Source: a virus
Reading direction: 5' to 3' (one strand)
DNA length: 62,409 nucleotides
Virus record (IMG/VR): IMGVR_UViG_3300027607_000105
Location: 1 to 62,409 of that record
Part shown: positions 2,667 through 30,943 of the stretch, one piece after another
Layout: the number at the start of each line of letters is the position of its first letter
How positions within the stretch are numbered: position 1 is the first letter of the stretch
Position numbers and translations under genes: made by a program
The notes under the pieces: generated by a model
What the model was told of the DNA's origin: nothing
The model's database searches: none
What the model saw: the letters and a program-made list of their open reading frames with translations, nothing else

Positions 2667-3057
2667 CAGCCGAGTCCTTCTCACTCTCTCTATTGGCCTC
2701 AATAGCCTGGGCTGCGGCTTCTGTCTCTTCGGGAAGGGTGTGCCAAAAATCTGCCAATTGGCCTGGTGTGAAAGCGTCTTTCAATTCTGCAAAAGGCGCC
2801 AACGCGTTGGCCAGTGCGGCGTTACGGGTGCGTTCGGCTTGGAGTTGGCGTTCGGCTTCAATTCGTTTGACCTCATCTTCCGCAGAAGTATCAAGAGCCG
2901 AGCCAACCCACTTTTGCGCCACGTCTAGGCGGACGTATTCTTTGCAATGCAGTTTCATTTCGGCATTAGCTGCGTTGCTTTCGCACCACGTCTGCATTTC
3001 AATAGCGTCCGAGACTTGTTCAACACCAAGCCAAGCTCTTTCCGGCATATCACCCAT
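2659..3057 (-). CDS. Hypothetical phage protein with helical C-terminus
   Basis: 132 residues from the ATG at 3057 (MGDMPERAWLGVEQV). A longer in-frame start at 3162 would run into the upstream gene and is less likely. The C-terminal half is a charged helix (EDEVKRIEAERQLQAERTR) and the tail is acidic. It overlaps both neighbours by a few bases, so translation is probably coupled. The family is not recognised. Confidence 0.65.
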   Translation of the reverse strand: MGDMPERAWLGVEQVSDAIEMQTWCESNAANAEMKLHCKEYVRLDVAQKWVGSALDTSAEDEVKRIEAERQLQAERTRNAALANALAPFAELKDAFTPGQLADFWHTLPEETEAAAQAIEANRESEKDSADG

Positions 3058-3301
3058 CACTATCTCCCTCGATTTGCTTTGAGTTGGCCGGTTTGGCTTC
3101 AGCTTCCAGCGTTTTGATGGCTTGCAGATATAGGCGAACACCGTTGAACAATTGCTTTGCAACCGCAGCTCTTGCGAGCCCCTCGGCTGGACTGATCTTC
3201 CCGGATCTCAGCGCCTCCAGATCGCCTGACAACCCAATAACCGTTTCTCGTAAGTTCAGATTGTCCGACACGGGTGAACTCTCATAGTCTCTGCTTACCA
3301 T
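3050..3301 (-). CDS. Hypothetical small helical protein
   Basis: 83 residues, largely helical (LNLRETVIGLSGDLEALRSG, then RAAVAKQLFNGVRLYLQ). It overlaps the start of the next gene by 8 nt. The ending GDSDG matches that of the gene two places upstream (3617-3862), which may reflect duplication of the junction sequence. No function can be assigned. Confidence 0.65.
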   Translation of the reverse strand: MVSRDYESSPVSDNLNLRETVIGLSGDLEALRSGKISPAEGLARAAVAKQLFNGVRLYLQAIKTLEAEAKPANSKQIEGDSDG

Positions 3302-3624
3302 CGGATTATTGTCCCCCAGGCTCGGCTTGGAATTTCTTGTGGTTTCTGAAACTTGAAGTTTTCGTCAAAACACAAGTGTTTTGACTCGGCGTCAATGCAC
3401 TCGGCTAACGCATCAATTTGTTGCGCTATCCGTCTGTCTCGAAAGTTTCCAAAGGCACCAACTGGTCTGCCCCAGTGCCGTTCGCACCATGCGCAGACAG
3501 GCGGGACGTGCTGATAAGCATTTGGCTCAGGCCACTGTCTTTTGATTGTATGGCCACAGATCGCGCAGTCAAAAGACGGCTTAGGCCAGGGCAAAGGCTC
3601 ATTGTTCCAGTCGTATCTAACCAT
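3295..3624 (-). CDS. Hypothetical zinc-finger protein
   Basis: 109 residues from the ATG at 3624 (MVRYDWNNEPLPWPKPSFDC). Two CxxC knuckles, CAICGHT and VCAWCERHWG, with an intervening Trp-Pro segment, indicate a single zinc site. The C-terminal half has RDRRIAQQIDAL and a polar tail. Small zinc-knuckle proteins of this kind are frequent in phage early operons, and their roles are mostly unknown. Confidence 0.7.
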   Translation of the reverse strand: MVRYDWNNEPLPWPKPSFDCAICGHTIKRQWPEPNAYQHVPPVCAWCERHWGRPVGAFGNFRDRRIAQQIDALAECIDAESKHLCFDENFKFQKPQEIPSRAWGTIIRW

Positions 3625-3862
3625 CACTATCACCCCGCGCTGCGTCGGCTTTGAGCCAATTCTCTGCCCACGCTTTCATTTGTTTCCACTCCGCTTCGGA
3701 AATGTCACAAGCCTCCACAGTGCCCATGAACTGAGGGTCTATGTTGATCAGCTTGAAAAGCCTGCTTGCCATCCGCAATATCCTTGCTGCCTCGGCGTTG
3801 TGTTTCAATTCGGCGTTATCTTCGACAGTTCGATAGCCGCGCATGATCTTTTGTTCACTCAT
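3617..3862 (-). CDS. Hypothetical protein
   Basis: 81 residues, polar and helical (KHNAEAARILRMASRLFKLIN), with a Trp-rich segment (AEWKQMKAWAENWL). It overlaps the downstream zinc-finger gene by 8 nt. The same short segment 'AEIL/AARILR...' occurs in the right-end gene at 55738-55935 (NAKAAEILRDIYWAYGAQ), so the two may be distant paralogs. Function unknown. Confidence 0.65.
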   Translation of the reverse strand: MSEQKIMRGYRTVEDNAELKHNAEAARILRMASRLFKLINIDPQFMGTVEACDISEAEWKQMKAWAENWLKADAARGDSDG

Positions 3863-28581: not shown

Positions 28582-28660
28582 TCGCGGGGCGCCGCCCCAT
28601 GCGTGTGGATAGGTGAAGGTTGAAGCAAAGGGCCACGGGCCACGCGACACAAGGTGACAG

Positions 28661-30595
28661 ATGGCAGATCCGAGATTAGGCGGCCGGACCGTCAATGAGA
28701 TCCTTCAAGACATTTCGATCAGACATGCGATCGGTCTGGAGCGATTGAAACGGTCGGACATCGCCAAGCTTATAAAGCTTTTGGCAAAGGTCGACGCGGA
28801 TCTCCTGGACAAACTGGAAAAGCGACTGAATCGGCTCAGCAAACTTGACGCAACGAACTATGCGATCGGGAAGGTTGGCAAGTCGACAACTGATCGGCTG
28901 GAAAAGCTCCGCGAGATCATTCAAGACATTGAAAAGATCACAATTCAGGAAGGTATGAACTTCTGGAAATCCAACCTCCAGGAGTTGAGCAAGGCTGAAG
29001 CCGCGTTCCAAATCAACGCCCTGAAGTTCACGGTGCCGGTTGATGTGAAGTGGGTCACGCCATCGACCGATCAGCTTCACGCCATCGTCACGGCGAGACC
29101 ATTCCAGGGCAAGCTTCTAAGAGATTACGCAAAGCGGTGGGGCGCCAACAAGGCCCAGCGAGTCGACGAAGCTATAAAAATGGGATTGCTGGAGGGCGAG
29201 ACAATTGACCAGATCATGCGGCGCATCCGTGGAACAAAGGCTCGCAATTTCAAAGACGGCATTTTGGACATTAGTCGAAAGGGTGCCGCTACTATTACTC
29301 GCACTGCTGTCAATCATACGTCGAACCGGGCGCGCGAAAAGGTTTTCGAAGCGAACTCAGATGTCATCAAAGGCGTTCAATGGGTATCGACCCTCGATAG
29401 CCGGACGACAGAGATCTGCATGGCGCGCGACGGCAAGGTCTTCGCTATAAATTCAGGACCAAGACCCCCAGCGCATTACAATTGTTTACCTGGGGATAGT
29501 CTCGTATTGCCCATTGGTGGGATTTCGGCGGCTAGTAAAAGGCGGTTCGAGGGCGATCTCGTCACCATAAAAACAAGATCGGGAAAAATACTCAGGGCGA
29601 CACCAAACCATCCGGTGCTCAGCTCTCGTGGCTGGCTCGGCTCTCAGTTCCTCAAGGTGGGGGACCAGGTCTTGAGCCATATCAATAGTGAGCGGGTGCC
29701 GCCTGGGTTCAAAGATGAGGATCAGAACGTTGAGGCCCCGATTGAGGATGTAATTGCTGCGTTCAGCAAAACGATTGGCGTGGTGCCCATGGAAGTGCCA
29801 ACCACCACCCCAGATTTCCACGGCGACGGAACCGAGAATGAAGTCTGCATTGTATGGTCCAATAGGAGATTGGGCAGCAAAGGTGTATCCAAGGTCGCCA
29901 AACAATTTCTCGAACTGAAGTTCAAGGTTGCTTCTTCGATTAAGGCGAAGGTGGTCAGTAATCGCCTTTTCTCTAAGCGATTGAAAGTCAGGAGTTCTGC
30001 CTGTAGCAGCCTTATTCGCCGCTCGCGTGTTGGACTTCTTCTGCTCTGGCGTCATGCGGTCCATGCGGGCTTGTTGTTGCGCAGATCGATTTCGAAGCAG
30101 GATGTTGTGTTCTTTCAGGATGCGACGGATTGGGGTGTCGGAAATCCCAATGATTTTAGCGACACCCTTAATGCCTATGCCGGATTTGTACAGAGAGATG
30201 AGGTGGTCAGCGTCGACGTCAGTGATTTTAGCGGGCATGTGTATAACCTCGAAACAGAGTCAGGAACATATTTCGCGAACGGAATTATAACCCACAACTG
30301 CCGTTCAATAACAGTTCCAGTGACACACGCCGCGGCCTTCATTGATAAGGAGGCTGACCAAGCCACGCGGTCCAGTATGAATGGACGGGTGCCGGCGGAT
30401 CAAACATATGACGAATGGCTGCGCCGACAACCCAAGGAGGTCCAAGAGGATGCCTTGGGCAAGACAAAGGCGAAACTGTTCCGCGACGGCATGAAGATCG
30501 AGAAGTTTTCCGACCCGAAATCGGGCAGAACCTACACTTTGGATGAATTGAGAGCGACGGATATTCAAGCCTTTAGAGACGCTGGGCTGATGTGA
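28661..30595 (+). CDS. MuF/SPP1 gp7-like minor head protein with an intein
   Basis: 644 codons: N-extein 274, intein 272 (29483-30298), C-extein 98. Without the intein it is a 372-residue minor head protein; WVSTLDSRTTEICMARDGKV and the motif GPRPPAHYN+CRSITVPV are hallmarks of the MuF/gp7 C-terminal domain. The intein splits that motif before its conserved Cys, which serves as the +1 nucleophile. The protein probably joins portal and capsid. The opposite strand of the intein encodes a homing endonuclease. Confidence 0.93.
   Translation: MADPRLGGRTVNEILQDISIRHAIGLERLKRSDIAKLIKLLAKVDADLLDKLEKRLNRLSKLDATNYAIGKVGKSTTDRLEKLREIIQDIEKITIQEGMNFWKSNLQELSKAEAAFQINALKFTVPVDVKWVTPSTDQLHAIVTARPFQGKLLRDYAKRWGANKAQRVDEAIKMGLLEGETIDQIMRRIRGTKARNFKDGILDISRKGAATITRTAVNHTSNRAREKVFEANSDVIKGVQWVSTLDSRTTEICMARDGKVFAINSGPRPPAHYNCLPGDSLVLPIGGISAASKRRFEGDLVTIKTRSGKILRATPNHPVLSSRGWLGSQFLKVGDQVLSHINSERVPPGFKDEDQNVEAPIEDVIAAFSKTIGVVPMEVPTTTPDFHGDGTENEVCIVWSNRRLGSKGVSKVAKQFLELKFKVASSIKAKVVSNRLFSKRLKVRSSACSSLIRRSRVGLLLLWRHAVHAGLLLRRSISKQDVVFFQDATDWGVGNPNDFSDTLNAYAGFVQRDEVVSVDVSDFSGHVYNLETESGTYFANGIITHNCRSITVPVTHAAAFIDKEADQATRSSMNGRVPADQTYDEWLRRQPKEVQEDALGKTKAKLFRDGMKIEKFSDPKSGRTYTLDELRATDIQAFRDAGLM
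29486..30238 (-). CDS. Homing endonuclease, HTH plus Vsr/EDxHD type, antisense in the intein
   Basis: 250 residues on the minus strand, wholly inside the intein. Residues 10-45 form an HTH (LISLYKSGIGIKGVAKIIGI). Residues 103-178 look like a Vsr-like fold: Glu in NLELQFEKLF, Asp132 in GPYNADFILG, Glu141 and His148 in VAVEIWGGGWHFHG, then YILNRGLNVLILIFE. This pattern fits EDxHD endonucleases like I-Bth0305I. GAGG lies 8 nt before the ATG at 30238. Its TAA is the complement of intein codon 2. It should cut intein-free head genes to spread the intein. Confidence 0.85.
   Translation of the reverse strand: MPAKITDVDADHLISLYKSGIGIKGVAKIIGISDTPIRRILKEHNILLRNRSAQQQARMDRMTPEQKKSNTRAANKAATGRTPDFQSLREKAITDHLRLNRRSNLELQFEKLFGDLGYTFAAQSPIGPYNADFILGSVAVEIWGGGWHFHGHHANRFAERSNYILNRGLNVLILIFEPRRHPLTIDMAQDLVPHLEELRAEPATRAEHRMVWCRPEYFSRSCFYGDEIALEPPFTSRRNPTNGQYETIPR
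30284..30289 (-). promoter_or_regulatory. -10 box for the antisense endonuclease
   Basis: A consensus TATAAT on the minus strand, about 40 bp upstream of the endonuclease ATG. The -35 region (TTATTG at 16 bp) is weak. GAGG 8 nt before the ATG supplies an SD. Confidence 0.5.
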
Positions 30596-30607
30596 TAGGG
30601 TCCCCAA

Positions 30608-30943
30608 ATGGCTGGGGAAAAATTCACGGTTATCGAAGGCGGGAAAGCCCTGCCTGACAAGGCACCTGACGGCTCCAAGTGGGAGAAGTGGGAGTGTCCC
30701 TTTTGTCTCCACTACGACGGGCTGACAAGTGTTGAGGTCGCCATCACGTATCCTAGGGCCAGAACAGACGGCCGCAGAATTAGCCTTAAGGGCCAGAATA
30801 GAAATTTATTGATCTGCATCCGCTGCACCAAAAAAGGGCGAGAGCTTCTTTATGGAAAGGTCGGCGCCATCGCAGATTATGAGCGCGGTGTGGGCTGGGT
30901 CAGGTTTATTGACATCGAGAACGGCAAAACCGTTCTGAAGTAA
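30608..30943 (+). CDS. Hypothetical zinc-finger protein
   Basis: 111 residues. Two CxxC pairs, ECPFCLHYDG and LICIRCTKKG, form a probable zinc ribbon separated by a basic strand region (RARTDGRRISLKGQNRN). It sits between the minor head and scaffold genes. Function unknown. Confidence 0.65.
   Translation: MAGEKFTVIEGGKALPDKAPDGSKWEKWECPFCLHYDGLTSVEVAITYPRARTDGRRISLKGQNRNLLICIRCTKKGRELLYGKVGAIADYERGVGWVRFIDIENGKTVLK

Follow-up and report, generated by a model that had tools for sequence, protein, structure and literature searches.

Inteins with an in-frame homing endonuclease, such as PI-SceI, join a HINT splicing domain to a nuclease that lies between the splicing blocks, splice themselves out at a conserved motif of the host protein, are presumed to home, and show a sporadic distribution. 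In a structural study (PMC6801210), a single conserved position inside the intein was assigned to the endonuclease domains of all inteins. The element described here, found in a minor head gene of the virus record IMGVR_UViG_3300027607_000105 of IMG/VR (studied over its entire 62,409 nucleotides, hereafter the window, to whose positions all coordinates refer), resembles these inteins in all those traits, with splicing and homing as predicted activities. It differs from them in that its nuclease is encoded by a separate gene on the opposite strand, outside the intein polypeptide and overlapping the splicing blocks. It is very probably a mobile intein whose coding DNA also contains, on the complementary strand and with common codon boundaries, the gene of its homing endonuclease.

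To our knowledge, endonucleases of the EDxHD/Vsr-like type have been known as homing enzymes only in intron-encoded or free-standing form. Like one of them, I-Bth0305I (PDB 3r3p), which the relatives of the window nuclease match by profile (E about 3e-5), the window nuclease is predicted to combine a Vsr-fold catalytic domain with a DNA-binding part that bears a helix-turn-helix (HTH); it differs from the known forms in being embedded, in antisense, in an intact intein. Fractured split-intein genes have been reported to contain free-standing forms (Dassa 2009; Taylor 2011; as cited in PMC10448857 and PMC3943268).

Two other described systems come close. Hidden out-of-frame HNH genes without an intein are represented by the ShiLan domain (PMC11855218). 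There, as in the window, the gene of a phage protein has an insertion that stays open and is overlapped by the frame of a homing nuclease. In the window, however, this frame is antisense, in codon register and of Vsr type, and the insertion is a complete intein, which sets it apart from the ShiLan type. Group I introns are also known to bear homing genes on their complementary strand, namely His-Cys box genes located in a P1 extension in Porphyra (PMC2585584). There, too, a homing endonuclease gene lies opposite a self-splicing element, but the host strand is a non-coding intron RNA and the gene occupies a helix extension, whereas both strands of the window are protein-coding over ~250 codons.

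The original prediction for this locus, made from the DNA letters alone, knew of no described case. No earlier description of an antisense nuclease inside an intein was found among the open-licence papers searched, and the novelty of these elements is likely, although not certain. Together with the relatives presented below, the window element probably belongs to a widespread, undescribed class of mobile inteins in which the homing nuclease is a complete opposite-strand gene in exact codon register. This class would have arisen at least twice, with Vsr-fold and with LAGLIDADG nucleases, and would be a living and conserved instance of two functional enzymes encoded in register as sense and antisense, an arrangement from which, as Rodin and Ohno reportedly proposed, the two synthetase classes originated.

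Intein and nuclease on opposite strands

The minor head gene is a plus-strand open reading frame (ORF) of 644 amino acids (28661-30595), whose MuF domain region is split at HYN/CRS by an intein of 272 residues. In Pfam it matches Phage_Mu_F (4.5e-12) and Intein_splicing (PF14890, 1e-10), and in NCBIfam the N-terminal and C-terminal regions of inteins and phageSPP1_gp7. As predicted, the intein is complete: it extends from Cys1 to Asn272, and T40-P-N-H43, H271-N272, Cys+1 and Asn-1 are all intact in the window copy. It thus has the features of class 1 inteins (Cys1, a block B TxxH, a C-terminal His-Asn and a nucleophile at +1), and the corresponding splicing residues are invariant or almost so across relatives. 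Both ends are modelled by AlphaFold2 as a HINT fold, with a predicted local distance difference test score (pLDDT) mostly of 88-97, and Foldseek pairs them with 2imz, 4e2t and 1am2 at a probability of 1.00. Searches of Pfam, PHROGs and NCBIfam found no in-frame nuclease in the intein reading frame, the middle of which is disordered. An intron origin of the insertion was considered and rejected, since no Rfam match appears at E up to 1 within 28600-30700 and the insertion is open in frame.

The complementary strand is open for 250 codons (Table 1), each of which is the reverse complement of an intein codon, with common boundaries. The nuclease ATG lies opposite the His codon of the intein motif GHVYNLE and its TAA opposite the Leu2 codon (TTA), so that the splicing blocks are overlapped, exactly as the original prediction had read them. 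The prediction of an N-terminal HTH and a Vsr/EDxHD-like domain is also supported. In the window nuclease sequence by itself the nuclease domain is weak, a phmmer search of the single protein against PDB gave no significant match, and a profile of relatives was needed. The profile built from 13 relatives finds the endonuclease-like protein 3hrl (E 4.2e-7) and the catalytic domain of I-Bth0305I, 3r3p (E 3.3e-5), in PDB. Pfam detects MTES_1575 in 8 of these 13 members, along with resolvase-type HTH families. Residues E106, D132, E141, H148 and R160 are conserved, either invariant or near-invariant, as judged by sequence comparison, and none of the putative catalytic residues is missing from the window copy.

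Some relatives bear a second HTH in the nuclease (loci L020, L022, L023 and L026). This duplication is matched by an in-frame insertion that makes the intein ~50 residues longer.

Probable mobility and breadth of the arrangement

According to the mechanism proposed, the plus strand would produce a head protein precursor from which the intein excises itself at HYN/CRS, while the minus strand would give a separate transcript, starting inside or just downstream of the 3' end of the intein, for the HTH and Vsr-fold nuclease. This enzyme would cut intein-free head genes of co-infecting or resident phages at HxN/CR[CS], and repair of the cut would copy the whole element across. The nuclease core lies opposite the stretch where other inteins hold their in-frame endonuclease domain, and there the plus reading would need only to stay open and to leave splicing undisturbed. 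At the ends of the element, the splicing blocks and the nuclease ends are truly dual-coded.

The insertion is precise and polymorphic, and many relatives have empty sites. With the joined exteins of Snoke as query, 408 of 489 Guernseyvirinae-type records gave a coverage of at least 80% at a single place, and with those of Angelicage 81 of 104 Gordonia records did so; the matches are uninterrupted in most records. At the nucleotide level, the inteins of Jersey and Snoke are 96% identical and their exteins 66%. Conversely, Angelicage and Sedona have exteins that are 99% identical and nucleases at the same site that are only 32% identical. Empty sites, together with different elements at one site, fit what would be expected of a homing element. 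The nearly identical head genes of Snoke (L001) and Escherichia phage fEg-Eco06 (L025), with exteins 95% identical, carry different antisense-nuclease inteins at two different sites.

Certain homing nucleases act in phage competition too, and it could be argued that both readings are functional while the nuclease serves a purpose other than homing, such as the exclusion of competing phages, recombination or packaging. This is unlikely, considering that the nuclease is related to a family of homing enzymes (that of I-Bth0305I) and is set in a self-splicing element, and that its insertion has the precision, the empty sites and the substitution of one element for another just described.

The arrangement is not restricted to the window. 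A tblastn search with the nuclease retrieved 113 phage records, 82 of them with at least 80% query coverage, the best with ~33% identity over residues 1-250. They are mostly Guernseyvirinae-type phages of Salmonella and Escherichia, with the match typically at head-gene annotations; in the Snoke record it falls on the strand opposite an annotated intein. A nuclease match was obtained at 175 loci, which fall into 107 clusters at 80% identity. In 166 of them the nuclease faces, in register, an intact intein ORF, and the remainder are mostly cut by contig ends. Loci were also collected using only the first 66 residues of the intein as query, which avoids ascertainment by the nuclease; the antisense nuclease is present, in register, at all 80 of them. 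The original prediction had named inteins without the antisense frame as a finding that would speak against it; in two intein-ascertained sets of 80 loci each, this frame is present in 80/80 of both. Nearly all loci share the HxN/CR[CS] motif of MuF-like genes as insertion site. On this sequence evidence, the antisense-nuclease intein is a large, widespread family and not a single odd case, and its family-wide alignment (A1) is too diverse for contig scans.

A departure from the usual site is found in Virus Rctr197k (L027, 1465-2817), where an antisense-nuclease intein is inserted at a CxxC site in a gene of cytidine/dCMP-deaminase type (PF00383, 2.9e-10) that the record labels as head morphogenesis. 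Locus L141 encodes at 2947-3813 (+) a free-standing HTH and Vsr-like nuclease, in opposite orientation, which adjoins an uninterrupted MuF gene (HPGCRC). The complement of this nuclease gene contains 5 stops. The free-standing nuclease is possibly an ancestor or an escapee of the antisense element.

Dual coding and selection in both frames

The substitution test suggested in the original prediction was applied to single-base codon differences in 17 independent pairs, as rates per opportunity. Changes were classed as silent in the plus and changing in the minus frame (SN), changing in the plus and silent in the minus frame (NS), or changing in both (NN). The N-exteins show the signature of a single coding frame (SN 0.329, NS 0.021, NN 0.022). 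In the inteins, on the other hand, both frames are constrained, the minus more (SN 0.081, NS 0.168, NN 0.019), and the overall NS/SN is 2.08 versus 0.07 in the exteins. Selection is therefore purifying in both frames, as anticipated, and strong in the minus frame.

This constraint is partitioned along the element. Both frames are selected in the first quarter (SN/NN 6.6, NS/NN 4.6), and the minus frame dominates in the middle (NS/SN 4.5). The plus frame comes close to being free of constraint in the stretch from 55% to 75% of the length, where SN/NN is 1.5 (confidence interval, CI, 0.96-2.13). In the last 6%, past the nuclease start, the plus frame is selected (NS/SN 0.19; SN/NN at the C end 19.8). 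The partition agrees with the structural models: confidence is high at the splicing ends, which match inteins already known, and residues 146-233 are disordered. From sequence, the plus-strand middle thus appears as mostly unconstrained filler, flanked by dual-coded splicing ends. The window sequence follows the same pattern when compared with 51 relatives. Over nuclease residues 13-165 the minus frame is the better conserved of the two in 51 of 51 comparisons; over intein residues 3-67 it is the plus frame, in 50 of 51.

At the level of individual codons, intein residues T40, N42, H43 and G50 are fixed while the nuclease residues opposite vary, and nuclease residues R49, Y129, D132, G144, H148 and R160 are fixed while those of the intein opposite vary. 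The codon of nuclease Glu141 is GAA in 52/52, opposite the TTC of intein Phe112; GAG would retain Glu, yet it would alter the equally invariant Phe112. In the window and its relatives, the FHGD motif that includes this residue is near-invariant on both strands, opposite VAVE of the nuclease.

From the nuclease proteins and the local usage of codons, one would expect 465 plus-strand stops in 101 non-redundant elements, and none is seen. The window copy by itself expects only 3.6, for which reason it is the comparative evidence that carries the case. Antisense stops number 0 in 23,475 core codons versus 566 in 27,983 extein codons, a contrast that follows in part from how the core was delimited, namely within minus ORFs; weight is therefore put on the plus-stop test and on the intein-ascertained sets. 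Taken together, the sequences show dual coding and dual selection. None of the three findings that the original prediction had listed against itself was made, namely a minus frame without a Vsr-like match, homologous inteins without the antisense frame, or a minus frame free of selection.

These data bear on the remaining explanations. If the nuclease were real and the intein dead or decaying, the plus reading would be a leftover open frame, as the disordered and nearly unconstrained middle might suggest. This is very improbable, given the invariant splicing residues, the plus-frame selection at both ends, the complete lack of plus stops in the 101 elements, and a host head gene with a conserved HxN/CR site that presumably needs restoration. 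There is hardly any chance that the minus ORF is a mere shadow, open by accident opposite a plus gene with biased codons. The shared-register antisense frame is the one likeliest to be open by chance in GC-rich genes, and in the window alone only ~6.4 antisense stops, or the 3.6 plus stops already mentioned, would be expected. Nevertheless, the minus frame is under selection, with an NS/SN of 8.8 in the middle, has profile homology to known nucleases and a free-standing homologue (L141), and is kept in elements down to 37-45% GC, where other frames hold up to ~40 stops; the explanation was rejected on the basis of the substitution classes and the nuclease homology. Just as improbable is an antisense regulatory RNA, which could regulate the essential late gene that it overlies, as the constraint has minus-frame codon periodicity, the ORF start is conserved, the minus protein folds in the model and Rfam returned no match.

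Several points weigh against a mobile intein with an opposite-strand homing gene. The Foldseek comparison of the whole nuclease model with PDB gave no significant match, only the HTH being informative, so that the evidence for the nuclease fold comes from the profile comparison and from the conserved residues. Identity between the window copy and its nearest relatives is only ~40%, and for this reason the substitution test was run on relatives and not on the window copy. Transcription, translation, splicing, cleavage and homing are all inferred. Regarding expression, the Shine-Dalgarno-like GAGG and the TATAAT of the original prediction are present at their positions on the minus strand, but a sigma-70 scan of the window locus found no paired -35/-10 promoter on that strand, where TATAAT alone is suggestive; this one detail is weaker than in the original prediction. 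Across the 101 elements, an ATG or alternative start occurs at the same position, mostly the His codon of the intein, in 72; a 4-mer Shine-Dalgarno-like motif precedes the nuclease start, likewise in 72; and an exact TATAAT lies upstream in 35, versus 11.8 expected from synonymous shuffles. Antisense transcription is plausible in view of these signals.

A second type of nuclease has been found in an antisense position. The Gordonia phages Nordenberg, Lennon, Sitar, Thing3 and Barsten have a head-gene intein at the same site, with an antisense in-register ORF that contains a LAGLIDADG-like motif. A Pfam search of this ORF returned nothing, and its identification required the matches to I-MsoI (4e-4) and PHROG 5046 (1e-15). 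In the middle of the Nordenberg (L029)/Barsten (L176) pair, SN is 0.013, NS 0.238 and NN 0.015, and therefore the antisense frame is the one under selection. Judged by these comparisons, the LAGLIDADG type is a second nuclease class, unrelated to the Vsr type, in the same arrangement.

Intein endonucleases have been regarded as in-frame domains that occupy a single insertion site, yet in more than 100 phage lineages the nuclease is encoded on the opposite strand. Standard annotation misses it, and most of the records examined label the locus only as a head gene or a hypothetical protein. The family opens three questions to testing: how one set of codons can keep an enzyme on each of its strands, by what means a homing gene is expressed when it opposes a late virion operon, and whether coding in antisense and in register can evolve repeatedly, as the two unrelated nuclease classes suggest. 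It also points to where overlapping genes and new homing enzymes should be sought.

Feature coordinates and neighbouring genes

The window is a whole 62.4-kb virus record, with integrase, replication, terminase, portal, head and tail genes, and the minor head gene is placed between the portal and major head genes. The features of the locus are collected in Table 1.

Table 1. Positions of intein, nuclease and host-gene features in the window, with the evidence for each
Feature	Position	Strand	Evidence
N-extein, MuF/SPP1-gp7-like minor head protein, ends HYN	28661..29482	+	PF04233 4.5e-12; phrog_241 head morphogenesis 3.7e-127
Intein, 272 residues, Cys1 to His-Asn272	29483..30298	+	PF14890; N- and C-terminal intein regions of NCBIfam; Foldseek to RecA, RadA and GyrA inteins, probability 1.00
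Intein N-terminal splicing region (blocks A, B), dual-coded with C-terminal part of nuclease	29483..29680	+	pLDDT 88-97; SN/NN 6.6, NS/NN 4.6
Putative antisense homing-type endonuclease ORF, 250 aa, ATG to TAA	29486..30238	-	Full-length homologues in 82 phage records; AlphaFold2 mean pLDDT 90.4
Block B TPNH (residues 40-43)	29600..29611	+	T40, N42, H43 invariant in alignment A6; minus residues opposite vary
Vsr/EDxHD-like nuclease domain (residues 103-178) with E106, D132, E141, H148, R160	29705..29932	-	hmmsearch to 3hrl 4e-7, 3r3p (I-Bth0305I) 3e-5; conserved residues
FHGD motif (intein residues 112-115), opposite nuclease VAVE (138-141)	29816..29827	+	Near-invariant in both frames
Intein middle (residues 146-233), disordered filler in plus frame	29918..30181	+	pLDDT <50; SN/NN 1.5 (CI 0.96-2.13) between.55 and.75 of the length
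Resolvase-like HTH (nuclease residues 10-45)	30104..30211	-	HTH_7 7.6e-4; HTH in 10/13 members; Foldseek gamma-delta resolvase, probability 0.97
Intein C-terminal splicing region (blocks F, G; GHVYNLE...THN)	30188..30298	+	pLDDT 72-97; plus-frame selection on the final 17 residues (NS/SN 0.19)
GAGG, Shine-Dalgarno-like, 8 nt before ATG	30247..30250	-	Sequence
TATAAT, candidate -10 of antisense transcript	30284..30289	-	Sequence
C-extein, starts Cys-Arg-Ser, stop codon included	30299..30595	+	phrog_14819 3.3e-17 over residues 562-643; Cys+1

Two other loci deserve mention. At L155, the intein and the nuclease are in overlapping pieces through a frameshift, which reflects either decay or an assembly error. 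In L084, the N-extein of the head gene appears to hold the C-terminal end of another intein (FVVHSVEVAPHPEYHALGIRVHN/C), and perhaps there are two inteins in this gene.
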